From positions 1-46,281 of the forward strand of contig JABXHO010000113.1 of NCBI GenBank assembly GCA_013373595.1: a stretch of 46,281 bases of DNA, written 5' to 3'. Origin of the DNA: Flavobacteriales bacterium (GTDB lineage: Bacteria; Bacteroidota; Bacteroidia; Flavobacteriales_D; Crocinitomicaceae). Within the stretch, counting starts at the first letter, position 1; each line of letters opens with the position of its first letter. This document shows, in pieces, positions 5,001 to 41,015 of the stretch. The notes below the pieces were generated by a model. The model was not told the DNA's origin. It was given only the letters and a program-made list of their open reading frames with translations, and ran no database searches. The position numbers and the translations under genes are program-made.

Positions 5001-5138
5001 GTTTAATGTTGTTCCTGTTTGTGTTCCCACCTGAACAGTAGTTTGTCCAAAAGAACAGAGTGCACTCATTCCAAATAGCGTGCTTAGCGCAACACCTTTG
5101 AAACCAGACACCATGGGTTTAAGTCGTTTCAATTTCAT
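2046..5138 (-). CDS. Large secreted Ig/lectin-like protein with T9SS type A sorting domain
   Basis: This is a 1030-residue exported protein. A signal peptide-like N-terminus (two basic clusters, then a hydrophobic run ending SALCSFGQ) leads into a beta-rich region. Ig-like repeats at about 225-310 and 315-390 contain motifs such as LCTGDATTL and VCPGGTATI. Residues 515-745 resemble an L-type (legume-like) lectin domain: TGGADGIAYSFGDD, GTKLRLSFDAAG and a WNHLF strand. A PKD domain lies near 900 (YDWDFGDGTNV). The C-terminal 70 residues are a type A T9SS signal (HPNPASTNFTVTVDES, GVYFVQITTNGKSTIQKVVVR split across strands). The protein is predicted to be secreted or anchored to the surface, possibly binding polysaccharide. 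The domain calls are by eye. A terminator follows the stop. Confidence 0.85.
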   Translation of the reverse strand: MKLKRLKPMVSGFKGVALSTLFGMSALCSFGQTTVQVGTQTGTTLNYPITAYYGYSYTQQIYTASDLTGAGAASGLNEITAVRFYFESGANNNSDNWTVLLGNTTKTSFNSNSDWVDINQLENCFSGTVTMLGGGNWIEVQLTTPFIWDGTSNIVVAVDENQPGYGTTNGYWQKSDLGSDRSIYYYSDGINPDPANPENAFGRNGFVPNIQFEMTPLPDCAGTPAVSNILSSNGSSLCTGDATTLSIDNAVLENGITYQWQSFNTTSSTWEDIVGETGTSYLADNLQTTADYQLVVGCALSGSSTASNPITLTVNPLPTVVVDLTEAAVCPGGTATINASGADTYTWTPASSLNTGTGATVVASPTVATSYVVTGTDLNGCSNTDTSVIIPASDVVTDLFVTPGEICTSGSMVSVDVSAMPTVAGGGSWSFRFLEEDGTTELQTWSASSTYSFIPADDSVFVIYGQAQNSACTNPLDSVAIQVVVGFGADVAVESYNCLNMGGSASLSNIFGQPEVQSVYANTFDASANLSSVTMTGSASQNQDRLELTPSQTGVSGYASIDFGGNSYGGNNNFSMSFDLTTDLPINNYGTGGADGIAYSFGDDATQGSNGNGPNGRGTKLRLSFDAAGNSNQNGNQPGIYLVYGWTGNDAFGPTSTETLAYSTDVSSWKGLTDIPVEFTINGEGRASLWVNGTLIFEDIDMPQAYKEADVSTWNHLFSAATGGDAQRHAIANLDVESSSMVYGISAGSPTDVPTTWQTATTFDNLTPGTYHVWVSKDATAACSRNVQTIEIINTNPIVDLGSDTTLCEGDVLVLNAGNAGSTYTWSNTNEVTQTISVSTSGAYVAYVTDANGCVGIGTINVDVIDAPSANTIFMQGAFPTYTFTVMNAVNAQTYDWDFGDGTNVSNAPSTVSHTYTQDGLVDVSVVLSNMCGSTTVTEQFELINTVSIDEEGVEMVKIHPNPASTNFTVTVDESVEAYMSVVAVTGAQVMETVKIDGSYTVNVDGWNAGVYFVQITTNGKSTIQKVVVR

Positions 5139-5244
5139 AGAGTTAAAATTTTACATTGAAACAACAATTTGTAAACATCTAATACAAATTAGTGACGGGA
5201 CAAATACGGGACAATTGTGTTCTCTTTTCTCTTTCTTAGACCAA

Positions 5245-6897
5245 CTAAACACTGTCTATCAGCGATTTAAGTTCGTTTCGGTCGAGAATGCCGAGTTTCT
5301 TTCTAAGGCGTAGGTTCGTTTTCCTTACTGAGTCCACTCCAATTCCAAGTGCTTTGGACATTTCGGTTGTTCCTAGGTTCAGCTTAATCAAAACGATCAG
5401 TCGAATCTCCGCATTGGTTAAGTCGGGATAGGTTCTTTCAAAATACGCGAGAAATCCTTCAAATCGCTGGTCGAATAAACGGCGAAACTTGTGCCACCCT
5501 TCATCAGTCAGTAGCAAGTGTGAATTGATTTTTTCGCTCAGTTCTTCCCGTTGGGTATCATCAACTTTATCCTGCCACTTTTGAATTTCATCATTTAGCG
5601 CAAAAACAATTTCATTTTTTTCCATGAGGTTTTGAAGTGCGGTATTCAAATCTTCCTCCACGCGTTCCATATTCTCACGTATTCGCTGGCTTTTCAACTC
5701 AAATATTTCCTGTTCTTTTTTGCGGCGTTTACTGATTTGTCGGATGATGATAATCGCTCCAATTAACAATAAAATCAGGCCACTCCATAAACTGACGATG
5801 AGTACCGTAGCGGCTTTTCGTTTTTGATGCAGCTCTTTTATTTCGGACTGTTTTCGCTCGAATTCCAATTGAAATTCTATGTTTTGAATCGTAGTGAGGT
5901 CACTCGCGCGTCGCATCGAGTCTTCTACTTGTTTTTGCAAACGATAGGTACCTAGCGCTTGTTCAAAATCTCCTATGTACTCGAAAAAATCCGTTTTTGC
6001 TCGGTAATAATCAATCGGTGAAACTTCCGAAGAATGTTCGAGCATCAAAGAATCGAGCAGTTGAATTTTTTGCGTTGCGTCTTTTATTTTGCCTGTTGTC
6101 AAATCGACTTGAGCCAAGAGGCTTAACGCGTTCAATGCACTCTTCCATTGCGCATGATCTACGCTCAGATTATAATCGATTTCCAGGTATTTTCTCGCTT
6201 TTGACACGTCCTTTTTGACATAGTATAACAAGCCTAGGTTCCCCGAAATAACACCGTACCAAGCTTTGTTATTCTCTTTCTTGGCAAGGTTACTTGCACG
6301 TACAAAGTATGATTCTGCCGCTTTGGTATCAAATCGTTTATTGTAAATCAAGCCCATCGTGTTCAGCATGGAAATCCTGTTCTCTGAAAGTAAACCTGGG
6401 CATCGAAATCCTTTTTCAAACATTTCTTCGGCCTTTTTCAGTCGACCAAAGAAATAATACGAATGCCCCATCACTTCGTAAAAGCGACAAATATGCTTGA
6501 CGGTGGTCGAATCACTTTCTTCTAAACGCGCAATTTTATACAGAAAAGGATATGCTTCCTTGAAATGGTCCGCACGCTGCAATCGATCCCCAGCTGCAAA
6601 AAGTACATCGACATACTTCGGCTGATCCGCAAGGATAAAATCCTTGATGAACACAATCAATTTGATGAACTCATCCTCCGTTGTTCTGTTTTTCTCAAAG
6701 TCGCAGATATACTTCTTGAGATTCGAGTTTACGCGGCTTAAAGTCGATGATCCAACGAGTGCTTTTACTTCACTCTTTGCTTTACTTAATTCTATTGAAT
6801 GAGCGAACGAATACGTACAGATGAAAAGTACCAACAAACAAGAAATTGCTCGTAGAACGAGCGCAGTATATGATCTGTATGTTCGCTTGTCTTTCAA
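5245..6897 (-). CDS. Membrane-anchored TPR protein with C-terminal LuxR-type HTH
   Basis: This 550-residue protein has a Bacteroidota-specific regulator architecture. An N-terminal hydrophobic segment (AISCLLVLFICTYSFAHS) acts as a signal or anchor. TPR-type helical repeats follow at about 75-330 (AYPFLYKIARLEES, GHSYYFFGRLKKAEEMFEKG, ISGNLGLLYYVKKDVSKARK). One clear transmembrane helix lies near 360-385 (VLIVSLWSGLILLLIGAIII), then a basic, heptad-like coiled coil at about 390-450. The C-terminal 60 residues are a helix-turn-helix (TNAEIRLIVLIKLNLGTTEM, then ALGIGVDSVRKTNLRLRKKLG) resembling LuxR/GerE. The layout suggests a periplasmic TPR sensor and a cytoplasmic DNA-binding tail. No target is evident; the adjacent T9SS gene is one guess. 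The gene is monocistronic. Confidence 0.8.
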   Translation of the reverse strand: MKDKRTYRSYTALVLRAISCLLVLFICTYSFAHSIELSKAKSEVKALVGSSTLSRVNSNLKKYICDFEKNRTTEDEFIKLIVFIKDFILADQPKYVDVLFAAGDRLQRADHFKEAYPFLYKIARLEESDSTTVKHICRFYEVMGHSYYFFGRLKKAEEMFEKGFRCPGLLSENRISMLNTMGLIYNKRFDTKAAESYFVRASNLAKKENNKAWYGVISGNLGLLYYVKKDVSKARKYLEIDYNLSVDHAQWKSALNALSLLAQVDLTTGKIKDATQKIQLLDSLMLEHSSEVSPIDYYRAKTDFFEYIGDFEQALGTYRLQKQVEDSMRRASDLTTIQNIEFQLEFERKQSEIKELHQKRKAATVLIVSLWSGLILLLIGAIIIIRQISKRRKKEQEIFELKSQRIRENMERVEEDLNTALQNLMEKNEIVFALNDEIQKWQDKVDDTQREELSEKINSHLLLTDEGWHKFRRLFDQRFEGFLAYFERTYPDLTNAEIRLIVLIKLNLGTTEMSKALGIGVDSVRKTNLRLRKKLGILDRNELKSLIDSV

Positions 6898-7172
6898 GGC
6901 AAGAGGTTTAGGAGTCCTCTAATTTACATTTAGTATCTGAAGGATCAAAATTTAAAACTCGCTAAGCTTAATCGTTTAAATAGAGGGTTTCGCTAATCTT
7001 GATGAATTGAATGACTGCCATACTCCACCATTTTTGGTATTAACCAATACTCCATTTCATGGGTTTGTACAACGAAACAGCCATTTTTCGACTGTCGTGA
7101 AACGGCATTTTCGTAGAGAATATCTCCGCTTAGATAGTTCATTTCTGAGAAGAATTCGGTTTCTCTGGATAC

Positions 7173-7709
7173 TCACAATTTCTTTCGAAAACAGTCAAAA
7201 ACGGAAGGTACTTTTAAGTCAACGGCTCGGTCTGGGCGTCGATCTTGAAAGTTCTCGCTGTATGTATATTCGTAGCCCATTTTTTCGTACCATGTCCTCA
7301 AACGATTCTTGCCAGGCATTTGAAAATCACGTGGACGTAAAATATCAATTACCATGTAATCTGATCCATCCAAACGCGCCTGATTTTCGGCCACTTCAAT
7401 CAATTTGGAGCCTATGCCTTTTCCTTCCGCACTTGAATGCACTCCGAGTAAACCGAAACTACTTTCTTGAGCATTGACTTTCTTCAAATAAAGTGTCCCA
7501 ACAAGTTGACCGTTGAGTGCTGCACCCAAAATCACCTCATCATCTATCAATTTCTGAAATTCATGTTCTGGCAGCCGAACGTAGTTCTCTCCCCAAATTT
7601 CAACTTCAGTACGTGCGTAGGCATCGCGCATGATTTCATAAAGTTCCGTGCACTGACTTGGCGAAAACACGTCATTTTTCGAGGAGTAGATCGTCAACAA
7701 TTGGCTCAT
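7173..7709 (-). CDS. GNAT family N-acetyltransferase
   Basis: This 178-residue protein fits the single-domain GNAT fold. The acetyl-CoA binding motif A is clear (LGVHSSAEGKGIGSKLIEVA, matching the Q/RxxGxG/A loop as EGKGIG). The preceding strand is GTLYLKKVNAQESSFG, and a late WYEKMGYEYT matches the motif B 'GF/Y' segment. The substrate cannot be read from the sequence. The start at 7709 lies two bases from the stop of the upstream lipoprotein gene (7711), so the two are almost certainly one transcript and probably translationally coupled. It could acetylate a small molecule or a protein N-terminus. Confidence 0.85.
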   Translation of the reverse strand: MSQLLTIYSSKNDVFSPSQCTELYEIMRDAYARTEVEIWGENYVRLPEHEFQKLIDDEVILGAALNGQLVGTLYLKKVNAQESSFGLLGVHSSAEGKGIGSKLIEVAENQARLDGSDYMVIDILRPRDFQMPGKNRLRTWYEKMGYEYTYSENFQDRRPDRAVDLKVPSVFDCFRKKL

Positions 7710-7710
7710 T

Positions 7711-8247
7711 TCAATTTGTTTTTTGCACTCGAGGCAATGGTTTTTTGTAGTGAATCCCTATCGGTTTTGACTTTGCTTTTTTTGCATTCAAGGTATACGT
7801 TAAAATATATCGTGTGTCTTGATGTGGAATTTTTTCTCGTCCTATATCGCAATAATAGAGGAATAAAGAATCTTCAACGATGCTCGCCGAGCCATCAAAA
7901 ACATAGGCCCCGCCACCTGTAAATTCAACTTGAACGGTCAGCGTTTTTCCCTCCTTTTTCTGTGAAATGATTGTTGGATTTTTGTAAAACTTCAACCACT
8001 CTTTGTGCTCCCGCAAAATAGCTTCTCTCAATTTTAAATCCATTGTATCTCCAAAACTACTAACGATAAAACCCATTGTATCGGGAATTGTTTGTAGTAC
8101 GGAATCTCTATCCAAATAGGTTTCGTACGACCGTTCAAATGCGAAATCGACGAAAACTTGCTCCATTTTGTCTCTGTCAGAATGGTTTTGCGACGCACAC
8201 GATGTGAGCAATAGTGTAAACAGGCCAATAACGAGTTGTTTTGTCAT
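7711..8247 (-). CDS. Putative lipoprotein of unknown function
   Basis: This is a 178-residue protein. The N-terminus is a lipoprotein signal (MTKQLVIGLFTLLLTSCASQ), with a lipobox cysteine at residue 17 followed by ASQN. The mature part is a small alpha/beta domain: a charged N-terminal helix, then strands such as TLTVQVEFTGGGAYVFDG and SLFLYYCDIG. I do not recognise the family. It is directly followed by the GNAT gene with a gap of one base, implying an operon. An in-frame alternative start is not needed, because the ATG at 8247 gives a complete signal peptide. Confidence 0.75.
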   Translation of the reverse strand: MTKQLVIGLFTLLLTSCASQNHSDRDKMEQVFVDFAFERSYETYLDRDSVLQTIPDTMGFIVSSFGDTMDLKLREAILREHKEWLKFYKNPTIISQKKEGKTLTVQVEFTGGGAYVFDGSASIVEDSLFLYYCDIGREKIPHQDTRYILTYTLNAKKAKSKPIGIHYKKPLPRVQKTN

Positions 8248-8292
8248 ATTACTTTGGATAAACCCTCAGCTTGAAGGTACAAAAATGTCTGT

Positions 8293-8460
8293 TTAGTAGT
8301 CGGAAGCATCGCCACATGGGTTTTTCTCCCGGTTGATTCCACAGCGATCATTGTTTTTCGGCTCTTTCCGAAAAGGATTGATGATCCCCCATTCTCTCGA
8401 GGTAGGTTCTTGCTTCTTCTCTAAGTGCTTCGTGTTGCTCTTTGTGTTCTGCTCTTTCAT
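8293..8460 (-). CDS. Probable small ORF, 55 residues, charged
   Basis: The minus strand carries an ATG at 8460 and a TAA at 8293-8295, encoding 55 residues. The protein is highly charged: it starts MKEQNTKSNTKHLEKKQEPT and contains EWGIINPFRK and two cysteines in RCGINREKNPCGD. There is no signal peptide or membrane helix. An AGAAG stretch sits about 5 bases before the start. It fills most of the otherwise empty 8248-8638 gap. No family is recognised. The support is an open frame with non-shadow composition and a Trp/Cys-containing C-terminal half, so it may be real or chance. Confidence 0.4.
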   Translation of the reverse strand: MKEQNTKSNTKHLEKKQEPTSREWGIINPFRKEPKNNDRCGINREKNPCGDASDY

Positions 8461-8537
8461 TTAATCTTCTGACGTCTTTCTTTGCGAAACCTTACTTACA
8501 ATAACCAGAAAGCATTTCATAAAACGAAAGTACATAG

Positions 8538-8570
8538 AAAAAGGTCAGCGGGAGCCGACCTTTTCCTTTT
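8538..8570. terminator. Bidirectional terminator hairpin after the FAS1 gene
   Basis: AAAAGGTC (8539-8546) pairs with GACCTTTT (8557-8564) around a 10-base loop, with T-rich flanks on both strands. On the minus strand it follows the stop of the fasciclin gene by about 70 bases and ends its transcript. Confidence 0.7.
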
Positions 8571-8638
8571 TAACTGTGATACCAATAACAGTTATTAAAC
8601 CTAACCTAACTAACCCTATGAAGAGATTTTTATTACTA

Positions 8639-10195
8639 CTACAGTTTGACGAATTTCCCTAGAGCAACTTTTTCATCCTCTGCTACACGGATAAAATAGT
8701 TTCCATTCTCTAGTTCGGAAATTGTAACTTTTCCGTCAACTGAAGTTCCTTTTTTCACTGTAATTCCATTTGCATCGATGATTTCGTACTCACCGCTTGT
8801 TACCACGTTGAAGTGTACTTCCTCTGATGCTGGATTTGGATATACAGCGATTGTTTCGTTTTCAATTTCGTCGATTGATGCCGTTCCTGGAATCAATACT
8901 TTGTCAATAACATGCACAACACCGTTATCTGATGTTACATCTGCCATTTCAACGTTTGCGTCGTTAATCATTACTCCTGAAGAAAGATCAACCAAAATGT
9001 CATTTCCTTCTAAAGTAACGACTGTTCCGCTAGTCAAATCTGTCGATAATACCGTTCCATCTAAAGTGTGGTACAATAAGATGTCACCTAAGTTTGGAAG
9101 TGCTAAGATTCCGTTGATATCTGTGTTCAACTCTGCTGCTAAATTATCGAATGCTTGATCTGTTGGAGCAAATACTGTGAACTCAGAAAGTGGATTTGTT
9201 AATGCTGGTAACAACTCTGCTTCAATTACTGCTGAAGTTAATGTTGAAAATCCATTGTCGATTGCAACGTCTACTACTGTTTCTGAAGGCAAAACAACTG
9301 CGTCAAGAACGTGTACCACTCCATTGTCTGAAGTAATGTCTGTGCTGACAACTTGCGCTTGATTCGCGAATACATCTCCTGTACTGTTCACTGTCATTTT
9401 CAATGAGTTCGTTGTGCTTAGCGGTTGAGCAATCAAACCGTTTGTTACGTCTGCTGCCATTACTTCTGAACCGAGCACGTGGTAAGTTAAGATGTCTGCC
9501 AAGTTTGGAAGAGCCAATAACCCATTAATATCTGTGTTCAATGCTACTGCAAGATCGCTAAATGCTTGATCTGTTGGCGCAAAAACTGTGTACGTTCCAA
9601 AAGGATCTGTCAAAGCTGGAAGCAATTCCGCTGTGATTACTGCTGTTGTAAGTGAAGTAAAGTTGTTGTCAATGGCTACATCTACAACTGTTTCCGAAGG
9701 AAGTACAACTGCGTCAGTTGAGTGCACAACACCGTTATCTGTTGATAAATCTGCCGCATTTACCATTGCTTGGTTCACGTATACGCTTCCCATTGAAGTT
9801 TTCGTCAATTTCAATGAATTCGCTGTATTGAGAGGAACTACGATGTCGCCATTGTTAACGTCTGCCGCAGGAACTGTTGTTCCCAAAACATGATAAAGGA
9901 GAATGTCAGACAAGTTCGGAAGTGCCAAAAGACCATTAATATCCGTGTTCAACTCTGCTGCTAAATCATCAAATGCATTATTATCTGGTGCAAAAACTGT
10001 TAGTGTTGCACTTGGATCTTGAAGTGCGCTCTCCAAACCTGCTTGCTGAATCGCTGCAGCGAGAGAAGTATGGTTTGGACTTGTTGCAATCACATCATCG
10101 TATACGTTTGTTTGGGCATTCAAACCGAGAACACCCAAAAAAAGCATCAAGGAGAGTGATGTCATTTTTAATATTGGTAGAGATTTCATTTTCAT
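8639..10195 (-). CDS. Secreted protein with three fasciclin (FAS1) domains and T9SS type A sorting domain
   Basis: This is a 518-residue exported protein. The signal peptide ends near LGVLGLNAQT. Three FAS1 domains follow (about 30-165, 168-300 and 303-432). Each shows the hallmark sequences: 'TVFAPDNNAFDDL' or 'TVFAPTDQAFxxL', then 'LPNLxDILLYHxL', then 'SDNGVVHxxDAVVLP' (DKVLIP in the last). The C-terminal ~70 residues are a T9SS type A signal (VYPNPASEEVHFNV, ENGNYFIRVAEDEKVALGKF). FAS1 proteins mediate adhesion or matrix interactions at the cell surface. The three copies are close enough to indicate internal duplication. The gene lies downstream of an ECF sigma/anti-sigma pair on the same strand, with a separate promoter-like site near 10234-10260. 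Confidence 0.92.
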   Translation of the reverse strand: MKMKSLPILKMTSLSLMLFLGVLGLNAQTNVYDDVIATSPNHTSLAAAIQQAGLESALQDPSATLTVFAPDNNAFDDLAAELNTDINGLLALPNLSDILLYHVLGTTVPAADVNNGDIVVPLNTANSLKLTKTSMGSVYVNQAMVNAADLSTDNGVVHSTDAVVLPSETVVDVAIDNNFTSLTTAVITAELLPALTDPFGTYTVFAPTDQAFSDLAVALNTDINGLLALPNLADILTYHVLGSEVMAADVTNGLIAQPLSTTNSLKMTVNSTGDVFANQAQVVSTDITSDNGVVHVLDAVVLPSETVVDVAIDNGFSTLTSAVIEAELLPALTNPLSEFTVFAPTDQAFDNLAAELNTDINGILALPNLGDILLYHTLDGTVLSTDLTSGTVVTLEGNDILVDLSSGVMINDANVEMADVTSDNGVVHVIDKVLIPGTASIDEIENETIAVYPNPASEEVHFNVVTSGEYEIIDANGITVKKGTSVDGKVTISELENGNYFIRVAEDEKVALGKFVKL

Positions 10196-10719
10196 AATCT
10201 ATAATTGTTTAACTTTTTTAATTTTGAGTTAAACAAACTTAGTAATTTTTTGTTGAACAATTGTAAAAATTTGTTAAACATTTTTTTGGTTTTCTTTCTG
10301 GTTTTTTATATGTGTCTTATTTTCAGTTATTTATGTTTTTATCTGCCCGGGTAATTTTTTTAGTGGAAATTGTGTTTTTGAGTAATCTAGCGCTCTTTTT
10401 GGGTAAGTTTTCCGCTGGACACGCTTAGAAATTAATGCACAGCGCTAGTGAAATTTTCTTGAATTCTTCCGATTCTATCATCCGTTCAAATACAGAAGCC
10501 ATTCTTTTTTAAGCTATTATGATGAAAACGACTATTACTCGCATTCTTAATCTGTAGCGATTTTGTTTTCTGGTAAAATCAATCGTTTTGGGGAGGTAGA
10601 AGCGAACAAGCGACCTATGTCATGTTCAATGCTTTACACGAAATGAGGGACGATCAACAAAAGAATTGAGGGAATTGAGAAGGTATTGGAGGAGAAAATC
10701 CGTTTGGATGCTCTTTATT
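10196..10719. other. Intergenic region upstream of the FAS1 gene
   Basis: This 524-base stretch lies between the FAS1 gene start and the anti-sigma stop. The first ~170 bases are very AT-rich and hold the promoter-like site at 10234-10260. The rest contains only short frames (12-15 codons) on the plus strand and no convincing gene, RNA or repeat. Confidence 0.6.
10234..10260 (-). promoter_or_regulatory. Bacteroidota-type promoter for the FAS1 gene
   Basis: On the minus strand TAAGTTTG (10241-10234) matches the Bacteroidota -7 consensus TAnnTTTG exactly. A TTG (10260-10258) lies 16 bases upstream, slightly closer than the usual -33 spacing. The -7 box is about 39 bases before the FAS1 start codon, in an AT-rich context. 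It may be read by the housekeeping sigma factor or, given the neighbours, not be the only promoter. Confidence 0.4.
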
Positions 10720-11568
10720 TTAGATCGTACCTACTACGTACATTTGATCCAAGGTTGGCTTCACACTACCTCCATTTTTCTCTAGGGTAATGGCAAATGC
10801 TTGAATGTTTTCAAGATCGATTTCCTTCGGTGAAACAATTGTCGATTGTTTGTCGAGTACACCAAGGTCTACTGGAACTCCGTCTGCAATTGCCCACAAT
10901 TGATATTGTTTACTAGAAACTGGTGCCGGCAATCGGTCGGAAACGAGCATGAATTGTTTTTTCGCATCGCTCCAGAACACACGTGCTTGCGACTCTGGAC
11001 TTAAATCCGTTCCGGCCAACAATACTTCCTGCGTTGATTCGTCTAGAATGAGTTCTTGATATGCTTCGTTTTGAGCAAGTGTTTCGCGCAATCCTGTAAG
11101 ACTATCTTCGAATTGCTTTGCAGTTTCCGCTTCTACTTTGGCCAACTGATTGTTTGCCTCAATGCGCGAGTTACGCTCACCGAAGTACATGATTCCGAGT
11201 CCAATCAACGGAACAACGGCTGCTGCCACTGCCCAATTTAATCTAGACTTCGGCTTCATCTCCACTATTTTAGGCTGATCTGATTCTGCCTTATCTGGCT
11301 TCATCGAAACAATCTTCCCTTTTGTTTCCGAAGGATCTTGCTCAATGTTTTTGATGGACTCCAAGATAGATTGTTTTAACCCAGCGGGTGGCTCTACCGC
11401 AATGGACTCCATGTACGATTCAATAGTAGATTGAGCAGCATGCAATTCATCCTTCAGTTCAGGATAAATCGAAGACATGCATTCTACTTCACGGCGCTCT
11501 TGGTCAGAAACCGCACCGATCACATATCGTTCAATGATACCACTTGCTATATACTCTTTGCAATCCAC
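10720..11568 (-). CDS. Anti-sigma factor, RskA-like
   Basis: This 282-residue single-pass membrane protein has an N-terminal cytoplasmic part of about 100 residues (MDCKEYIASGIIERYVIGAV, DQERREVECMSSIYPEL), the typical anti-sigma helical region, without an HxxxCxxC zinc motif. A transmembrane helix lies at about 106-126 (AVAAAVVPLIGLGIMYF) and a coiled region follows. The C-terminal ~80 residues match the RskA domain (FWSDAKKQFMLVSDRLPAP, QYQLWAIADGVPVDLGVLD, AFAITLEKNGGS). It should hold the adjacent ECF sigma inactive at the membrane until a signal triggers its release. The start at 11568 overlaps the sigma gene's 3' end by 22 bases, so the pair is co-transcribed and coupled. Confidence 0.9.
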   Translation of the reverse strand: MDCKEYIASGIIERYVIGAVSDQERREVECMSSIYPELKDELHAAQSTIESYMESIAVEPPAGLKQSILESIKNIEQDPSETKGKIVSMKPDKAESDQPKIVEMKPKSRLNWAVAAAVVPLIGLGIMYFGERNSRIEANNQLAKVEAETAKQFEDSLTGLRETLAQNEAYQELILDESTQEVLLAGTDLSPESQARVFWSDAKKQFMLVSDRLPAPVSSKQYQLWAIADGVPVDLGVLDKQSTIVSPKEIDLENIQAFAITLEKNGGSVKPTLDQMYVVGTI

Positions 11569-12110
11569 AATAAAAGAATTGATACAAAAATTTCTCTTAG
11601 TTCTTGCACGGCTGAGCGTGCTCTTGTTTTTACTGTTCCTAAAGGAATTCCAAGCTCATCAGAAACTTCCTGCTGAGTGTATCCTTTGAAGTAAATGTAT
11701 TTTAATATTATCTGTTGATCTTCTGTTAGTTTGGCAATGTGATCTTCTAATCCGATTGCACTAATATTTGTCTCAGTTCCTGTACTTGCGTATACATTCT
11801 CCTGCTTCAAATTGTCTTTTCCTGTTCTTACACGTTCAATTTTTCTCAGTTCATCAATCGATTTATTTCGACAGATGTTCAGCATCCACGTGAAGAAGCT
11901 ACCTTTTGATGAGGAGTAGGAGTTTGCCTTTTTCCAAATTTTGACGAAACAGTCTTGCAAAATATCCTGGGCTAAGCCATCATCATTTACAATTTTCAAA
12001 ATAAGTCCATAGAGAGATCCGCTGTACAAATCGTACAATTGCGACAATGCCGCTTCATTTCCATCCTGTAGCTGGACAATGAGTTCTCCTATGTTCGTTT
12101 CTTTCGCCAA
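11547..12110 (-). CDS. ECF RNA polymerase sigma factor
   Basis: This 187-residue sigma-70 family protein contains only regions 2 and 4. Region 2 (about 25-95) includes LYDLYSGSLYGLILKI, the DILQDCFVKIWKKA segment and FFTWMLNICRNKSIDELRK. Region 4 (about 130-178) includes LTEDQQIILKYIYFKGYTQQ followed by the HTH EVSDELGIPLGTVKTRAR. A linker of 30-35 residues separates them. It directs RNA polymerase to a dedicated promoter set and is controlled by the RskA-like membrane anti-sigma factor encoded next, with a 22-base overlap. The likely regulon, by position, includes the FAS1 gene and the duplicated lipoprotein that flank the pair. Confidence 0.95.
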   Translation of the reverse strand: MAKETNIGELIVQLQDGNEAALSQLYDLYSGSLYGLILKIVNDDGLAQDILQDCFVKIWKKANSYSSSKGSFFTWMLNICRNKSIDELRKIERVRTGKDNLKQENVYASTGTETNISAIGLEDHIAKLTEDQQIILKYIYFKGYTQQEVSDELGIPLGTVKTRARSAVQELREIFVSILLLWIAKSI

Positions 12111-20310: not shown

Positions 20311-20358
20311 TACACAACCCTTCGCTACGGAAAATACCACTTATTCATTTCGGAAACC

Positions 20359-20385
20359 TTGATTATCAATATTATAATAAATTTA
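20359..20385 (+). promoter_or_regulatory. Possible promoter of the lanthipeptide precursor gene
   Basis: TTG (20359-20361), a 16-base spacer and TAAATTTA (20378-20385) approximate the Bacteroidota TTG/TAnnTTTG promoter, with the last base off consensus. It lies 54 bases before the precursor ATG in a strongly AT-rich leader. The spacing equals that of the FAS1 promoter candidate in this window. Confidence 0.3.
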
Positions 20386-20438
20386 ATCTCTAAATTGTTG
20401 TTGATAAAATGATTTAATCACTAATTAAAAAAGTAATC

Positions 20439-20603
20439 ATGGAAAAAGTAACATTAGAGAGTATTCAGGAATCAATACTTAAACTTCAAAGAATCATCGT
20501 TGAAGGTGAAGAAGCAGGTATTTTTGCCCGCAGTACGCAAAGTACTACGTGCAGTACAAAAAGTGTAGGATGCAATATTGGAACCAGTAAGCTGACAGCC
20601 TAA
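20439..20603 (+). CDS. Class III lanthipeptide precursor peptide
   Basis: This 54-residue ORF is preceded by an A-rich leader. The N-terminal ~28 residues form an acidic amphipathic helix (MEKVTLESIQESILKLQRII, then VEGEEAG). SILKLQRI corresponds to the hydrophobic 'L-x-L-Q' recognition box of class III leaders. The C-terminal core is rich in Ser, Thr and Cys: S32-T-Q-S35-T-T-C38, then S39-T-K-S42-V-G-C45, then NIGTSKLTA. Both heptads match Ser-x2-Ser-x2-Cys, the pattern that LanKC enzymes convert to labionin (or lanthionine plus Dha). The gene ends 217 bases before a class III synthetase on the same strand. Leader cleavage is expected near residues 28-31, but no obvious double-Gly site is present, as usual for class III. 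The product is not identical to any peptide I recall. Confidence 0.82.
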   Translation: MEKVTLESIQESILKLQRIIVEGEEAGIFARSTQSTTCSTKSVGCNIGTSKLTA

Positions 20604-20617
20604 CACGCCTCTAGACA

Positions 20618-20642
20618 AGATCGTTAGTAATATTCACGATCT
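20618..20642 (+). promoter_or_regulatory. Hairpin just after the precursor gene
   Basis: AGATCGT (20618-20624) pairs perfectly with ACGATCT (20636-20642) around an 11-base loop, 15 bases after the precursor stop. There is no T-run after it, so it is more likely an mRNA-stabilising or partial-attenuation structure than a full terminator. Confidence 0.4.
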
Positions 20643-20651
20643 GTAAACTTT

Positions 20652-20701
20652 GAAGGTGCATTTTAATGTGTTGGTACTTGACCTGCATGAATTGCACCTT
20701 C
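20652..20701 (+). promoter_or_regulatory. Second hairpin between precursor and synthetase
   Basis: GAAGGTGCA (20652-20660) pairs perfectly with TGCACCTTC (20693-20701) across 32 bases, with further weak pairing inside. It is followed by TAATTTATCC. With the hairpin at 20618-20642 it could let the precursor be expressed more strongly than the synthetase, as is common in lanthipeptide operons. Confidence 0.4.
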
Positions 20702-20820
20702 TAATTTATCCTCCAGAACTACTTTTATTAACTCCTTATGAAAATAATGGTCGCCTGTGTTTTATCATACTCTTCCTTGTACTCCCAGTTGTAAATATGA
20801 ACCAATTAACCTGAACTTGT

Positions 20821-23505
20821 ATGGATAATAATGCTGCAATTAATGCTCAAAATATTTTTGGTCTTGCCAGTCCTGAATATTATGAGCCAGTTTCAAAGCT
20901 TGAGTTGGATCAAGTGTTTATCGAACTATTAAAAGAAATGGTTCCACCTCAATGGAATTTAATTCGTGGCGATATATGGGTTCATGCACAAAGCCCTCTT
21001 GATAAACCTCCAAGACCCCAAGGATTTAAGATTCATGTTTCTACTACCCCATTGCATGTTCAGAGGATTCTTGAAATTATTGTCCCTATCTTGGTCAATA
21101 AGAATATAGAATTTAAGATTGCAGGGGATGAGAGTATTTTGTTTTTATTGAATTCAAAACAACAATCCCGTGGTAGTTCGGGGAAATTCATGACTATCTA
21201 TCCGCCTTCTGAAGAAGTTTTCATTGATGTGATCGAGAATTTGTACCAAAACACAAAAAATGAACCGTTCGAGGGCCCATATATTCTTTCTGATAATAGG
21301 TACAAAGAGAGTAATATCTTATTCTACCGATATGGGGGTATCAACCCCCCTGATAAATTAACAATAGAAGGAACAAGAGATTCCTACCTGATTTCGCCTG
21401 ATGGTGAACATGTTTTAGATCAACGATTGCCGTATTTCAATTTGCCTGCTTGGGTAGTCGACCCATTTAAAAAAGTGTCGCAGGACAACGACGATAACAG
21501 TACGCTCCTGAAATCACGTTACCGCATTGAAGGTGTTCTGAGTTTTTCGAATTCAGGTGGCGTTTATCACGGCATTGATACTTTCACGAATCAATCAGTC
21601 ATAATAAAAGAAGCTCGTCCACATACTAATTTCTGGAGAATTGAAGATAAGATTTGGGATGCGACTTATTTACTCAAAAGAGAGTATAAAACCTTGGTTC
21701 AGTTAGAATCCCTTAGCTTTATTCCAGACCCTATTGATTTTTTTCAAGAGTGGGAACATAGCTTTTTGGTTGAACAGAGGGTTGATGGCATTCGGTTTGA
21801 CAGTTTTTGGACGCAGGAGGATGTCATTCTTGCTCCGTATATTCGGGACATCAAAAGCTTCAATACTTTTATCCCCAAATTTCGGGAAATTGCATTACGG
21901 CTGATTGCCATGGTACAAGAAATCCATGCTAAAAACGTAATTCTGGGGGATTTGTCCCCCAATAATATCCTCATCAATAATGACACCCTTGAAATGTATT
22001 TCATTGATTTTGAAAGCGGTTTGTTGCCTGGTGACGATTCTGAAATCATGAAGTATGCTTTGCATTGGGGAACTCCTGGTTTTATGAGCCAGAACCGTGA
22101 GGGGCAGGAAAGTTTGAAACCTAAGGATGATTTCTATTCCTTAGCAATGGTGCTATACAGTTGTGTTATTTCAGTGAACAATATATTTGAGATCAATAAC
22201 AAGCCGTTGATGTTTTTCATTGATAAACTAGTCGACTTAGGACTACCTATAGAAGTCAGCTCAGCGATAACCCACCTAATGAATAATGAAGTTGATAAGG
22301 CCAAGGAAGCATTGCTTCAGCTTCGGGTTGGGAATACTGAAATGCTCGCTAATTTTCATTCAAGCAAGGTGAATGAGAACATGATTAAATCCATTGCCAG
22401 TAATGTTGAAAATACTTTAGAGCGAATGGTCGAGTACATTCTGAGTACTACTGATTGTGACAGAAATGACAGACTCTTCCCTGCTCATTACTCGATATTT
22501 ATGACTAATCCGATAAATGTCGCTTATGGAGCCAGCGGGACAATGCTTTTTCTTCAGGAGATGATGGAAGAACTACCAGACCCTATATGGGATTGGGTAG
22601 ATAAGCAGCCAATAGACTTACAGTTCTATCCTCCCGGATTCTTTGTTGGACTATCAGGAATTGCGTATACCTTTTTGAGATGCGGGCAACTGGAAAAGGG
22701 CGAAGAAGTAATGGATATGCTTTATAGATCGGAATTGCTTTTTGAAGAACCTAGTATTTTTCTCGGAGTTGCAGGGTGGGGTATGGTTAGCCTGAGTTAT
22801 TGGAAAAGGACGAAGAAAGACATCTACCTCAATATGGCACTAAAAGCGGGTGAGCACCTGTTGGAAACCGCTGCTTATGAAGAGGGACTTCCTTACTGGG
22901 AATATCAGAACGACAACCGGGTTCATTTCGGACTTGGGTATGGGAGTAGCGGAATCGCTTATTTCTTATTGCTTTTATTTATGGAAACCAACAGAACTGA
23001 ATTTAAGGAATATGCCGAAAAAGCTCTCGAGTTTGATCTTCAGCAAAAAATGGAGAGCGAATTTGGATGGCAATGGACCCGATACAAAGATGATACTCTT
23101 CTATACCCTTATTGGATTCATGGATCCTCGGGAATAGGTAGTATTGTGATCAGGTTTTATAGTATTTTAGGCTATGAGAAATACAAGGATCTTGCATGCA
23201 AAATAGCTGACGATACATTCGTGAAGTATGCGTTTATCCCAAGCACATTTGAGGGACTAGCTGGAATCGGTGAATTCATGTTAGATATGTACTTCTATTC
23301 AGGGAAAACTGATTATTATGAAAAAGCCTTTGATATCGCCGAAACCATTCTGTGGTTTAAGATCGATACTCCAAAGGGGACGGCATATCCAGGGAGGTGG
23401 TTAACAAAAACTTCCACTGATTATGCAACCGGATCTGCTGGTATCGGATTGTTTTTCAAACGATTGCTAAACCCTGGGCCACACATCATACTGGACATGT
23501 ACTAA
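20821..23505 (+). CDS. lanKC: Class III lanthionine/labionin synthetase LanKC
   Basis: This 894-residue trifunctional enzyme has the usual class III length. The N-terminal lyase-like domain (about 1-230) includes GFKIHVSTTP at 68, RGSSGKFMTIYP at 117 and GPYILSDNRYKESNILFYRYG. The kinase-like domain (about 233-500) has VIIKEAR with predicted ATP Lys263, the catalytic loop GDLSPNN (D377, N382) and the metal-site motif as D396-F-E. The C-terminal LanC-like domain (about 560-885) has the glycine-rich repeats (VAYGASGTM, LGYGSSGIAY). The zinc ligands of class I/II cyclases are absent: WIHG stands at 765-768 where WCYG is expected, and STFEG at 808-812 where a Cys-His pair is expected. It should phosphorylate and eliminate core Ser/Thr and form (labi)thionine rings in the peptide encoded at 20439. 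No transporter follows on this strand. Confidence 0.93.
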   Translation: MDNNAAINAQNIFGLASPEYYEPVSKLELDQVFIELLKEMVPPQWNLIRGDIWVHAQSPLDKPPRPQGFKIHVSTTPLHVQRILEIIVPILVNKNIEFKIAGDESILFLLNSKQQSRGSSGKFMTIYPPSEEVFIDVIENLYQNTKNEPFEGPYILSDNRYKESNILFYRYGGINPPDKLTIEGTRDSYLISPDGEHVLDQRLPYFNLPAWVVDPFKKVSQDNDDNSTLLKSRYRIEGVLSFSNSGGVYHGIDTFTNQSVIIKEARPHTNFWRIEDKIWDATYLLKREYKTLVQLESLSFIPDPIDFFQEWEHSFLVEQRVDGIRFDSFWTQEDVILAPYIRDIKSFNTFIPKFREIALRLIAMVQEIHAKNVILGDLSPNNILINNDTLEMYFIDFESGLLPGDDSEIMKYALHWGTPGFMSQNREGQESLKPKDDFYSLAMVLYSCVISVNNIFEINNKPLMFFIDKLVDLGLPIEVSSAITHLMNNEVDKAKEALLQLRVGNTEMLANFHSSKVNENMIKSIASNVENTLERMVEYILSTTDCDRNDRLFPAHYSIFMTNPINVAYGASGTMLFLQEMMEELPDPIWDWVDKQPIDLQFYPPGFFVGLSGIAYTFLRCGQLEKGEEVMDMLYRSELLFEEPSIFLGVAGWGMVSLSYWKRTKKDIYLNMALKAGEHLLETAAYEEGLPYWEYQNDNRVHFGLGYGSSGIAYFLLLLFMETNRTEFKEYAEKALEFDLQQKMESEFGWQWTRYKDDTLLYPYWIHGSSGIGSIVIRFYSILGYEKYKDLACKIADDTFVKYAFIPSTFEGLAGIGEFMLDMYFYSGKTDYYEKAFDIAETILWFKIDTPKGTAYPGRWLTKTSTDYATGSAGIGLFFKRLLNPGPHIILDMY

Positions 23506-23512
23506 GATGTAG

Positions 23513-24223
23513 TTATTCGATGACTTTTTTTTCACCATTTTCATCTATGCTCTCGATATGAGGTACGCCCTCCTTATCAAGATATATTTGCAACCTCGTA
23601 TTATTACTCTCATCCATCAAGTAAAGACCGAATTCATCCGAGAAGGTTCTACCTAAAAACAGTCTGTAAGGAGCTGAGTGGTCAGGATCATTGTAAAACT
23701 TTTCCAATTCTTTTTCACGTAATCGGGAGTCTTCAATTTTTTCAATCTTCCTCAATTCTGATGTGATCGCGTCGTTTTGTTTATCGGATCGTTGCTGCAG
23801 CAAAAGACCATACTGCTTTTTCCACTCTCCTTTTTCCAAATATTCGTCTTTTCTGAGTGCCATTATCTGATCATTTTTTCGCTGATCAAATGTCAGAAGC
23901 TGATAGCTATTTGCGCTATCAATTCCGTAAACCAAGCCTCCGATTTCATCTCCATCCTCATTAAAGAACAGTAATCCTGCAATGTTTCTTTCAGTTGCAT
24001 CAGGATCCACGGGTTTACCATCGATTGTGGCTAACGCCTGTCTTTCAGGACTGCTCAATACCAAATACTTATTTCCGTCTTGTCCAACAATATTTAGTCT
24101 TTCAGTTGTTATTTCAGGTATTACGTTTTCGAAATTATTCTCCCCTTGCCTAATGTACAAGACTATTAGGTATACCAGAATTGACAATAATAACAGGAAA
24201 TTAATTAGTGGTAGTTTTTTCAT
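23513..24223 (-). CDS. Membrane-anchored protein of unknown function
   Basis: This 236-residue protein has an N-terminal uncleaved-looking hydrophobic segment (LINFLLLLSILVYLIVLYI) and then a soluble domain. Sequence features are a beta-rich part (ERLNIVGQDGNKYLVLSSPE, NIAGLLFFNEDGDEIGGLVYG), a charged helical middle (about 110-175) and a beta C-terminus (NNTRLQIYLDKEGVPHIESI). I do not recognise the family. It is convergent with the LanKC gene, with only seven bases between the stops, so it is probably not part of the lanthipeptide transcript. Homology to generic Bacteroidota 'hypothetical' proteins is likely. Confidence 0.75.
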   Translation of the reverse strand: MKKLPLINFLLLLSILVYLIVLYIRQGENNFENVIPEITTERLNIVGQDGNKYLVLSSPERQALATIDGKPVDPDATERNIAGLLFFNEDGDEIGGLVYGIDSANSYQLLTFDQRKNDQIMALRKDEYLEKGEWKKQYGLLLQQRSDKQNDAITSELRKIEKIEDSRLREKELEKFYNDPDHSAPYRLFLGRTFSDEFGLYLMDESNNTRLQIYLDKEGVPHIESIDENGEKKVIE

Positions 24224-24669: not shown

Positions 24670-24954
24670 ATGGAAGTTATTGTTTTTGAGAAGGAATCCT
24701 TCAACAAACTCATTGACGAACTAACCGTTCGTATTATCCAAAATGTAGAACGTCACTATCACGACAAAGAGTGGATTGGCGAAGATGAAGCTAAAGAGCT
24801 TCTTGGTATTCGGGGTAAAGGAAGAACCTGTCTTCAGCGCTTGCGAGACACATTAGCCATTGAGTTCAGTCAATTTGGAAGAATTATTCGTTACAGTCGA
24901 TCAAGCATTCTTCAGTTTTTAGAGAAGCATCGAATGAGTCTTGATAGGATTTGA
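24670..24954 (+). CDS. Excisionase-like HTH protein
   Basis: This 94-residue protein has a short N-terminal helical part (VIVFEKESFNKLIDELTVRI) and then a winged-helix/MerR-like HTH (about 36-88). The HTH has WIGEDEAKELLGIRGKGRTC, LQRLRDTLAIEFSQFGRIIR and the final YSRSSILQFLEKHR. This is the layout of the small HTH-17/excisionase-type proteins that accompany integrative elements in Bacteroidota. A Rho-independent terminator follows directly. No integrase is next to it, but a tRNA-Asn gene, a common integration target, begins about 140 bases downstream. It may be a leftover of a former mobile element. Confidence 0.75.
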   Translation: MEVIVFEKESFNKLIDELTVRIIQNVERHYHDKEWIGEDEAKELLGIRGKGRTCLQRLRDTLAIEFSQFGRIIRYSRSSILQFLEKHRMSLDRI

Positions 24955-25078: not shown

Positions 25079-25090
25079 CGTCCTGTTTAG

Positions 25091-25164
25091 CGCTCCTTCC
25101 AGGGCTCGAACCTGGGACCCTCTGATTAACAGTCAGATGCTCTAACCAACTGAGCTAAAGAAGC
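25091..25164 (-). tRNA. tRNA-Asn (GTT)
   Basis: The minus strand reads GCTTCTT (acceptor 5' arm, 25164-25158), a D-arm with AGCTCAGTTGGTTAGAGC, and an anticodon arm TCTGA-CTGTTAA-TCAGA with anticodon GTT. It continues with a T-arm containing GGTTCGAGCC and the 3' arm AAGGAGC plus discriminator G (25091). The acceptor arms pair with one G-T. CCA is not encoded, as is common in Bacteroidota. A strong terminator follows. Confidence 0.96.
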
Positions 25165-32676: not shown

Positions 32677-33051
32677 ATGACAAAAACACGATATTCAGAT
32701 GACGAGCTTAAAGAGTTCCAAGACTTGATTAATGGCAAGCTCAAGGAGGCAAAAGAGGATTTGGAGTTGTTAAGAGGTTCTCTTTCTCATAACGATGATC
32801 ACGGAACAAATGACACAGGACGTACTTTCAATATGATGGAAGATGGTTCAGATACTTTGTCTCGCGAAGAAGTTGCGCAGTTAGCTTCCCGTCAGGAAAA
32901 GTTCATTGCTAATTTGAACAATGCATTGGTTCGTATCGAAAACAAGACGTACGGAATTTGCCGCGTAACTGGAAAATTAATTCGTAAGGAGCGTTTGAAA
33001 TTGGTTCCTCATGCAACCCTAAGTATTGAAGCAAAGAATGCCCAAGGCTAG
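32677..33051 (+). CDS. TraR/DksA family protein with degenerate zinc finger
   Basis: This 124-residue protein has the DksA layout: an N-terminal coiled coil (about 1-85; YSDDELKEFQDLINGKLKEA, AQLASRQEKFIANLNNALVR) followed by a C-terminal finger segment (IENKTYGICRVTGKLIRKER). In canonical DksA four cysteines bind zinc; here only C94 or so is left and the others are Thr, Leu and Ser. Zinc binding is therefore lost, as in some Bacteroidota members. DksA proteins act in the secondary channel of RNA polymerase. The gene overlaps lspA (14 bases from its ATG), a pairing also known in other Bacteroidota. Confidence 0.9.
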   Translation: MTKTRYSDDELKEFQDLINGKLKEAKEDLELLRGSLSHNDDHGTNDTGRTFNMMEDGSDTLSREEVAQLASRQEKFIANLNNALVRIENKTYGICRVTGKLIRKERLKLVPHATLSIEAKNAQG

Positions 33052-33820
33052 TCAATTGAAGCGACAAATATTGATCGTTTCGATCGCTGTTTTTCTTGTT
33101 TTATTGATCGATCAGATCATAAAAATTTACGTTAAAACACATTTCGTAGTTGGTGAAGATGTGCCCATTTTTGGCGATTGGTTCGTGATGGAGTACATTG
33201 AAAATCAGGGAATGGCGTTCGGAACAAAGTTTGGATCTAAAGTCTGGCATAAGCTGGCACTGAGCATCTTCCGAATGATTGCAATTGGTGCAATTGTTTA
33301 CTACTGGATCAAACAGGCCAAGAAAGGTGCGCGAACGGAGTTTTTGTTTGCAATTGGTTTGGTCTTGGCTGGAGCTACGGGAAACCTCATCGATTCGATG
33401 GCGTACGATTACATTTTTGAATTTGATCCATGTGGTCCTTTTAATTCGTTGGAAGGTTCAGGAATTTTCGTAGACTGCAACACTTTGTGGGAAGGAAAAC
33501 GGGAAATTCGTCATTCTGGTTTTCTGTTTGGAAACGTGGTTGACATGTTCAAATTTCAAGCTGTTTGGCCCAACTGGGTTCCGTGGCTAGGAGGAAAAGA
33601 TGTGTTCCCTGCTATTTGGAACTTGGCTGATGCGTCTATCACTGTTGGTGTGATTATGATCTTTTTCCGTCAGCGTAAATATTTCCCACAGGAAAAGAAA
33701 AACAGTAAAGGAGGTCTTTTCAAGAGAAGAAAAAACACTTCTGACGAAGCTTCAGAACAAGAGGTTTCACTGCCTGATACTTCTGAGAATTTATCTACTG
33801 AGACAAGCACGGAAGGGTAG
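33038..33820 (+). CDS. lspA: Lipoprotein signal peptidase
   Basis: This is 260 residues from the ATG at 33038; a TTG four codons earlier is possible. LspA is an aspartyl protease in the inner membrane that removes the signal peptide of prolipoproteins. Four membrane helices are readable (about 9-28, 70-90, 100-122 and 188-210). The conserved blocks are VLLIDQIIKIYVKTHF, YIENQGMAFG, GATGNLIDS, FGNVVDMF and WNLADASITVGV. The last two hold the catalytic aspartates. The protein ends with a cytoplasmic extension of about 45 hydrophilic residues. The many lipoproteins in this window are its substrates. It overlaps the dksA-like gene. Confidence 0.96.
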   Translation: MPKASQLKRQILIVSIAVFLVLLIDQIIKIYVKTHFVVGEDVPIFGDWFVMEYIENQGMAFGTKFGSKVWHKLALSIFRMIAIGAIVYYWIKQAKKGARTEFLFAIGLVLAGATGNLIDSMAYDYIFEFDPCGPFNSLEGSGIFVDCNTLWEGKREIRHSGFLFGNVVDMFKFQAVWPNWVPWLGGKDVFPAIWNLADASITVGVIMIFFRQRKYFPQEKKNSKGGLFKRRKNTSDEASEQEVSLPDTSENLSTETSTEG

Positions 33821-40078: not shown

Positions 40079-40900
40079 CTAATCCGTACTACAGCAATTT
40101 CGGAATTTCTTGCCGCTGTCGCAGGGACATGGCTCCCAGTGTTGAGTTGGTTTTGCTTTTTTCACCAACTCTCGATCCGCGAGCTCTTGCCCGAACATCA
40201 ATTCCATGTACTCGTAAAGAACAGGATGCTTTTTTTCGAGCAGTTTCGGTCGTTCGAAAAAGTACTCAGATACCACCGCTAAAAACTCTTCGTGACTGGT
40301 TCCTCCATAATCGCGAATGTCACTTTTGTGTTTACGAATCTCTTTGATGTTTTCATCCATCAGTTTAATCCACGGAAGTACTAGACCTCGCTCCTCAATT
40401 GTTCCAAGCACGCCATCCATCTTTCCATCCGCTTTATCGAGCAAATGAACAAACTCATGAATGGCTGTGTTTTGCTTATCCGTTTTGTTCTTATATCCAT
40501 GCCAGAGCGAATATTTCGAAAGAATCATTTTTCCCTCCATGTAGCCATACCCCACCATTCCGAGGATTGCTTTGGATTTTGATCCGATGGTATGATTTTC
40601 ATCGAAGTGTTTTGGATAGAGCAAAACCTCCCGCAAATTGTGATACTCCCACGCAGGAAAGGCAAAAATGGGAACAATGGCACTCGCACCAATGAGAACA
40701 CGGTCTTCATCTTCTACTGTAGTTTTGATTCCTGTAATTTTCGTCGTATTCAGGAAACGCAAGACCCGTTTTTCAAATTGCTTTTTTTCCTCTGGACCCA
40801 ACGACCGATAAAACGGCAAATATTCAATTAGTAGATCTTTCCATGCTTGAGGAAATTCAATGTCTTGAGCTTTTCGCTTTTTCTTTCTGAAGAAACACAT
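40079..40900 (-). CDS. M90-family zinc metallopeptidase (MtfA-like) with C-terminal SEC-C motif
   Basis: This is 273 residues from the ATG at 40900, which gives the MtfA-type start MCFFRKKKRK. The frame stays open to an ATG at 40972, but that adds 24 unlikely residues. The peptidase domain (about 15-245) has the zinc site NTAIHEFVHLLDKADGKMDG (HExxH), followed by SHEEFLAVVSEYFFERP with the downstream glutamate. The last ~20 residues, HWEPCPCDSGKKFRNCC, are a SEC-C zinc motif. In E. coli MtfA acts in glucose uptake control as a zinc peptidase. Here the substrate is unknown. The gene converges on the lipoprotein pair across an inverted repeat. Confidence 0.88.
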   Translation of the reverse strand: MCFFRKKKRKAQDIEFPQAWKDLLIEYLPFYRSLGPEEKKQFEKRVLRFLNTTKITGIKTTVEDEDRVLIGASAIVPIFAFPAWEYHNLREVLLYPKHFDENHTIGSKSKAILGMVGYGYMEGKMILSKYSLWHGYKNKTDKQNTAIHEFVHLLDKADGKMDGVLGTIEERGLVLPWIKLMDENIKEIRKHKSDIRDYGGTSHEEFLAVVSEYFFERPKLLEKKHPVLYEYMELMFGQELADRELVKKAKPTQHWEPCPCDSGKKFRNCCSTD

Positions 40901-41015
40901 GAGCGCAAGATAATGAGGAATGTTGAAATGTTGTTGAGTTTCGGGGTTCGAGAACTTCAATCTTTGGTTCAAAACAGTAAAATTGCGGGATGATGCTCCG
41001 GAATTCCGCTTCTAT

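Follow-up and report, generated by a model that had tools for sequence, protein, structure and literature searches.

A class III lanthipeptide locus in a Bacteroidota genome and its kinship to two-protein synthetases

Introduction

How does a genome of the Bacteroidota come to carry a class III lanthipeptide locus, and from what form of synthetase did its enzyme descend? The question is raised by a stretch of 46,281 nucleotides (the window), positions 1 to 46,281 of contig JABXHO010000113.1 in assembly GCA_013373595.1 of a Flavobacteriales bacterium (Crocinitomicaceae), in which an initial annotation, made from the letters alone, had noticed a short precursor gene ahead of a complete gene for the lanthionine synthetase LanKC. 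According to a 2020 survey (this and the other papers cited are represented here by excerpts), one protein both dehydrates and cyclizes the peptide in classes II to IV, and a system was assigned to class III or IV only if LanC and kinase were found in one protein, the rest being left unclassified (PMC7268733). The same survey stressed class I for the Bacteroidota (PMC7268733), and the experimental class III systems named in the excerpts of a 2025 review come only from Actinobacteria, Firmicutes and Myxobacteria (PMC12328550). The reading put forward here, which we hold to be somewhat probable, is that an overlooked class III subclass exists in at least four phyla, in which a lyase-kinase and a separate zinc-free LanC would act together, and that the Bacteroidota locus would be a re-fusion of such a pair by loss of a stop codon, making a two-ring peptide with an SxxSxxC-SxxSxxC core.

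A Two-Gene Class III Locus

The locus consists of two open reading frames (ORFs) on the forward strand, one of 54 amino acids plus stop at 20439-20603 and one of 894 amino acids plus stop at 20821-23505, lying 217 nt apart just as the initial annotation had it, and together they very probably form a minimal class III lanthipeptide locus. The chemistry expected of it is ordinary class III and its core is of a type that seems common to several phyla; it is the host that appears unusual. On the assignment to class III with an adjoining precursor, profile scores, domains, motif tests, relatives and fold all agree with the annotation.

The 894-residue protein passes the equivalog model for class III LanKC, NF038151 (640.7 bits, cut-off 575), and within it Pfam finds, in this order, a phospho-Ser/Thr lyase domain, RamC_N (PF25816, residues 37-223, 20929-21489), a Ser/Thr kinase domain (PF00069, residues 244-462, 21550-22206) and a LanC-like cyclase domain (LANC_like, PF05147, residues 566-886, 22516-23478). 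Its best solved relatives by sequence are the entries for ThurKC (E 2.2e-64). An AlphaFold2 model from a 19-row alignment (mean pLDDT 85.6, pTM 0.85, with residues 509-515 below pLDDT 50) retrieves lanthionine synthetases at all Foldseek ranks from 1 to 18, with ThurKC at ranks 1 to 5 and SalKC and PneKC, both labelled class III, lower down; the match to 8sam_A has TM scores of 0.73/0.76, at about 24% identity in the structural alignment. Ranks 6, 9 and 11 are CuvL, labelled a trifunctional synthetase, which from its name we take to be class IV. The cyclase domain has no zinc ligands, the positions that are Cys, Cys and His in zinc enzymes being I766, F810 and E811, and the protein does not reach the cut-off of the class IV model NF038150 (491.1 bits, cut-off 650), so that a class IV LanL was ruled out on both grounds.

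The residues known from ThurKC were located by hand in the alignment of the PDB match (the chain number being the paper number plus 3), and the columns were then checked in the seven nearest relatives described below. The ThurKC lyase residues K65, H67, K94, K108, K117, D152, R163 and R191 (PMC10604976) correspond to K70, H72, K99, K113, K122, D158, R170 and R202 of the window, identical in eight of eight sequences, and those in contact with the leader Gln, R112, Y243 and E258 in ThurKC (PMC10604976), are R117, Y249 and E264, again kept in all eight. Other contacts are less constant: the positions of ThurKC Y148 and W302 differ in both Nonomuraea proteins, that of Y148 also in the Gemmatimonadetes protein. 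The kinase residues K263, D377, N382 and D396 are conserved, and across the seven aligned cyclase halves, from which that of Nonomuraea cypriaca was left out, the Phe of the zinc-ligand region is constant and the last position is Glu or Asp; the omitted half reads, by eye, LFSG, with Ser where the window has Glu.

The 54-residue peptide has the sequence MEKVTLESIQESILKLQRIIVEGEEAGIFARSTQSTTCSTKSVGCNIGTSKLTA. Its leader, which we place at residues 1-31 (20439-20531), carries the helix motif ESILKLQRI, in which ILKLQ is of the ILxLQ type common to class III precursors; a motif akin to it, LELQEL, is described as highly conserved among the leaders of class III (PMC10206099). The predicted core, residues 32-54 (20532-20600), contains two abutting units, STQSTTC-STKSVGC, that is S32xxS35xxC38 followed directly by S39xxS42xxC45, and has 11 Ser/Thr and 2 Cys in all, so that the leader helix and the Ser/Thr/Cys core of the initial annotation are both present. 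A pattern made up of a class III-type leader motif and then S/T-x2-S/T-x2-5-C, which was written with knowledge of class III precursors and is thus a test of fit and not a blind one, occurs in one of the 392 window ORFs of 30-120 amino acids, namely the precursor itself. Among 2000 dinucleotide shuffles of 20311-20820 it arose once, and never (0/2000) when two SxxSxxC units were demanded. Length alone is uninformative, because an ORF of 54 amino acids or more arises in 640 of the 2000 shuffles; a chance ORF was ruled out by the pattern in the shuffles and by the window-wide count. The positive control used relatives obtained by scanning 84,980 species genomes with two short peptide patterns as seeds, which gave 126, the best 80 being kept; in the 70 of these 80 loci with full flanks the pattern adjoins LanKC 55 times, and it is found in 0/70 control stretches from the far flanks. 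Judged by its motifs, the peptide is likely the substrate precursor of LanKC. No further copy of it was found in the same genome at E up to 1.

The Nearest Relatives Encode Two Proteins

The best 80 relatives and seven plasmid loci make up the 87 loci examined. In the seven that are nearest to the window, from four other phyla, lyase-kinase and cyclase are separate ORFs: a member of the Caldilineaceae, Chloroflexota (L012), S. hiroshimensis (L020), Nonomuraea cypriaca (L013), Nonomuraea sediminis (L015), Corallococcus with two loci (L018, L019) and a member of the Gemmatimonadetes (L021). The other 80 have single long synthetase ORFs. The scan that flagged splits had marked 11 of the 87, four of which were discounted: in L009, L062 and L091 the synthetase is one long ORF with a cyclase half that did not pass the E limit, and L083 (Streptomyces albipurpureus) has two tandem full-length LanKC-like genes (4303-7164 and 7300-9984).

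The two halves are arranged in several ways. In L012 and L020 they lie in the same frame, the first ended by TAG and TGA, respectively, and the next start codon following after 9 and 0 nt; in L018, L019 and L021 the cyclase is in a different frame from the lyase-kinase. In L015 the cyclase ORF (5950-7131) is upstream of the lyase-kinase ORF (6905-8791), and in L013 the cyclase (3762-5012, reverse strand) is divergent from the precursor (5329-5499, forward) and the lyase-kinase (5965-7470, forward). Read-through or frameshifting cannot explain these last two. Of 54 genomes searched in the genus to which N. cypriaca belongs, 13 have matches at E up to 1e-50, and two are split (N. cypriaca itself and, by coordinates, N. 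sediminis); the other 11 have full-length matches in frames of 838-1107 amino acids, and therefore the split follows the clade and not the genus.

Six of the seven also have a precursor beside the enzyme, and the abutting double motif recurs in two, L012 and L020. The precursor of L012, the best relative, has HSGTSMGCSTKSIGC, with the unit CSTKSIGC to compare with STKSVGC of the window, and that of L020, SGISIGCSSYSVGC, contains CSSYSVGC. In the L013 precursor, SGASDHCGNSAYSNHC, the two units stand two residues apart, and one precursor each is present in the two Corallococcus loci and in Gemmatimonadetes.

The lyase-kinase (N) protein of all seven split relatives ends 0-10 residues past the last position that aligns to window residues 498-503, just ahead of the kinase-cyclase junction of the window (G504-M508, 22330-22344, forward strand). 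There the window reads ..V GGG AAT ACT GAA ATG.. where L012 reads ..V TAG GCC AAT TCT ATG.., with equal spacing, and such an equally spaced junction is what re-fusion by loss of a stop would leave.

Eight of the halves were scanned with the LanKC model (both of L012, L020 and L015, and the lyase-kinase of L018 and L021) and scored 241-443 bits against the cut-off of 575. Because each scanned half is under that cut-off, split systems would easily be missed by current tools, and they would be lost in the 2020 survey as well, since it needs LanC and kinase in one protein. The literature searched yielded no description of a split LanKC and no name for one, though a myxobacterial split class III system may already be in print. 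That the two activities can be parted has been seen with engineered ThurKC, whose lyase-kinase was inactive alone and modified the peptide once a separate cyclase was added, a stable complex not being seen (PMC10604976), and individual domains are described in a review as each able to work alone (PMC7296275). The relatives found here point to a natural two-protein form of class III synthesis, and natural pairs together with a natural fusion of one of them would allow a direct test of kinase-cyclase cooperation.

Re-Fusion or Repeated Fission

Is the fused enzyme of the window, about 54% identical to that of its best relative L012, a survivor of the ancestral form or a secondary fusion? In the tree of the lyase-kinase half the window groups with the seven split relatives, with sets of 5, 7 and 8 rows at 98/95, 97/94 and 100/98, and in the tree of the joined domains it stands among them (5 rows at 99/99, 8 rows at 100/99). 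The window enzyme nests within the split group, most clearly on the joined domains. An approximately unbiased (AU) test rejects a clade of the split rows that excludes the window on the joined domains (p 0.0002), on the N half (p 0.0056) and on the C half with six split rows (p 0.026), p values that are optimistic because the group was defined after the split had been noticed. Together with the equal spacing of the junction in the window and in L012, this makes it probable that the clade descends from a split synthetase and that the window enzyme was re-fused when a stop codon was lost. Against such a history speak the C half with all seven split rows and a slightly different outgroup, where the test does not reject (p 0.114), the choice of the tested group after the split was seen, the rooting of the trees by midpoint, and the weakly resolved order among the window, L012, L013, L015 and L020.

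The alternative, that the Bacteroidota lineage kept the fused state and that its relatives underwent fission independently and repeatedly, would suit the varied gene arrangements of the seven split relatives and the fused outgroups. It needs more events than a single fission with a single fusion, for which two changes were counted on every tree, and in all seven the N protein ends 0-10 residues past the last position aligned to window residues 498-503, which makes repeated fission rather unlikely. One fission followed by one re-fusion is the simplest history.

Host Genome and Distribution

That the host belongs to the Bacteroidota, as the initial annotation had supposed, is borne out by the contig itself, which encodes proteins with sorting domains of the type IX secretion system (T9SS) and on which 14 of the 16 genes tested from 25,279 rightwards have counterparts in the same order on a contig (C2) of a same-genus genome (G507), over 25.3-43.8 kb of the window; by this synteny the contig is assigned to its genus within the Bacteroidota. 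The assembly has 179 contigs and an estimated contamination of 1.21%, which would favour an origin of the contig from another phylum; synteny and T9SS genes rule that origin out for practical purposes and leave it next to no probability.

Genome samples of the phylum (395 genomes, E 1e-10), class (395, E 1e-60), order (399, E 1e-60, searched with the family model) and family (200, E 1e-10), which overlap and are not additive, each contained a full LanKC only in the window's own genome. Two further genomes of the family sample match in part, one through a 438-amino-acid LanC-like frame (28% identity to the window cyclase) and one in the kinase region (24%); the LanC-like frame (L002, 862-1935) lies in a same-genus genome that has no full LanKC. 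The RamC_N model alone matches 3/395 genomes, two others besides the window's, partially and more weakly; these RamC_N-like stretches (L109, 547-1947, and L110, 952-2115) sit in frames of 467 and 388 amino acids, each in a further Bacteroidota genome, and perhaps belong to other phospholyase-type proteins. Among 14 control genomes one, Deinobacterium chartae, was matched each time the synthetase or the RamC_N model was used.

The literature search found no paper that joins LanKC with Bacteroidota, with several relevant papers outside its reach. The annotation's judgement that such a member is likely undescribed agrees with this search and with the 2025 review and is nevertheless unproven, since a rumen survey reports a few antiSMASH class III clusters whose phylum is not stated in the excerpts (PMC8241843); the excerpts of a mining study of Bacteroidales speak of LanC- and LanM-type genes and do not mention LanKC (PMC10352776). 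To the annotation's further remark that class III is best known from Actinomycetota it can be added that such systems are annotated in Bacillota and Deinococcota too. The present locus extends class III lanthipeptides to Bacteroidota.

The flanking amidase gene is matched in 34/34 genomes of the genus, strongly (E 1e-99 or better, 56-83% identity) in 22 of the 33 others; in the remaining 11 the matches are distant amidases only. A tRNA-Asn gene adjoins it in the window and is present in five of six relative stretches scanned. On the LanKC side, where the relative stretches extend 0.7 to 11.9 kb past the amidase, they hold counterparts only of 7173-7709, of 24670-24954 and, short and partial, of 2046-5138. 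The small ORF at 24670-24954, 84% identical in one relative (L106), lies beside the tRNA-Asn (25090-25164), and the region beyond varies among the relatives fetched; by eye we take it to be excisionase-like or helix-turn-helix-like, and the family scan assigned it to no family. The tRNA-Asn region might be an integration hotspot or island, which is a suggestion only, since none of the repeat families listed (20 of 28) contained a copy of the tRNA end.

Adjoining LanKC, at 23513-24223, is a gene for a 236-residue protein that is present in one of the 34 genus genomes, its own, and has no Pfam match and a weak SAVED match under the NCBIfam cut-off. A scan for sigma-70 promoters gave 8 matches, fewer than the 16.1 in shuffles, and carries no information. 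Farther off, at 8639-12110, genes for an ECF-type sigma factor and an RskA-type anti-sigma factor stand beside one for a fasciclin-repeat protein with a T9SS sorting domain.

Proposed Biosynthesis

If the locus works as its relatives and domains suggest, the leader helix ESILKLQRI would dock in a groove between the lyase domain and the N-lobe of the kinase of LanKC, the kinase would phosphorylate Ser and Thr of the core, the lyase would eliminate the phosphate to give dehydroalanine and dehydrobutyrine (Dha/Dhb), and the zinc-free cyclase would join each Cys to a dehydrated residue. The expected product would have two neighbouring rings of lanthionine or labionin type, S32..S35..C38 and S39..S42..C45, and its maturation and secretion would fall to a protease and an exporter not linked to the locus. 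Our best guess for the product is a secreted two-ring peptide, for which a morphogenetic, a signalling or an antibacterial role may be imagined. The peptidase genes in the window, for an M90 metallopeptidase (40079-40972) and a signal peptidase II (33026-33820), show no sign of a link to the locus. On another contig of the same genome (C74; L111 from 1432) lies a gene for a protein with a C39-peptidase domain, possibly a leader-cleaving exporter, with no link seen.

Several observations weigh against a working class III locus. The precursor is under every NCBIfam cut-off (lanthi_III_a 15.8 against 22, lanthi_III_b 14.3 against 30), a cut-off being a matter of scoring and not of chemistry; the precursor of L020 also falls short of it, and that of L012 matches nothing. 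The 33 window proteins that were scanned include no ABC exporter, whereas each of the five plasmid clusters inspected from Deinococcus and Bacillota has one. L015 shows no candidate precursor nearby, so that LanKC homologues without the small ORF, which the initial annotation had named as evidence against itself, occur once in seven. Lastly, the genus and family samples contain no close orthologue, because of which constraint on this exact locus is not measurable.

The lack of a visible exporter in the window and the sporadic distribution would fit a decaying import without function; with the frame of 894 amino acids intact, the mapped catalytic residues kept and the precursor intact despite divergence to about 54% identity from the best relative, we regard such decay as very unlikely. 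Likewise very unlikely is an enzyme that dehydrates without forming rings, or a peptide active in a linear, dehydrated form: where ThurKC has Ser726 and Asp771 the window has Ile and Glu, but Phe770 is kept, one acidic residue is exchanged for another, and the S726A mutant of ThurKC still formed the ring (PMC10604976).

Comparison With Known Systems

Among characterized systems the window is closest to that of ThurKC and andalusicin from Bacillus thuringiensis (PDB 8sam, 8sao and 8sap), the best fold match, with which it shares the order lyase-kinase-cyclase, the catalytic and leader-binding residues, the leader helix motif and the lack of a protease in the cluster. It differs in that the ThurKC cluster has seven precursors and a methyltransferase (PMC10604976), and in the Ile and Glu that replace Ser and Asp in the cyclase. 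The Deinococcus class III clusters (L005, L006) have a fused LanKC 33-35% identical to that of the window, an ILxLQ-type leader and SxxSxxC cores, and, unlike the window, two to five precursor-like genes with a LuxR-family regulator and an ABC transporter alongside.

The class III cluster of Myxococcus fulvus also has a host from another Gram-negative phylum (PMC9576775); expressed in E. coli in a 2022 study, it gave 7 dehydrations and 3 rings, and it had not been annotated in the 2020 survey (PMC9576775). The excerpts do not state whether its synthetase is split or fused, and the comparison with the window is by description only. The pinensins are, like the expected product of the window, lanthipeptides of Bacteroidetes/Bacteroidota, made with a split dehydratase (PMC7268733), but by class I chemistry and a different type of dehydratase. 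The nearest kin found are the split synthetases, which have the same lyase and kinase residues and, in L012 and L020, the same abutting SxxSxxC core, and which differ from the window in keeping on separate ORFs the lyase-kinase and the cyclase that the window has fused.

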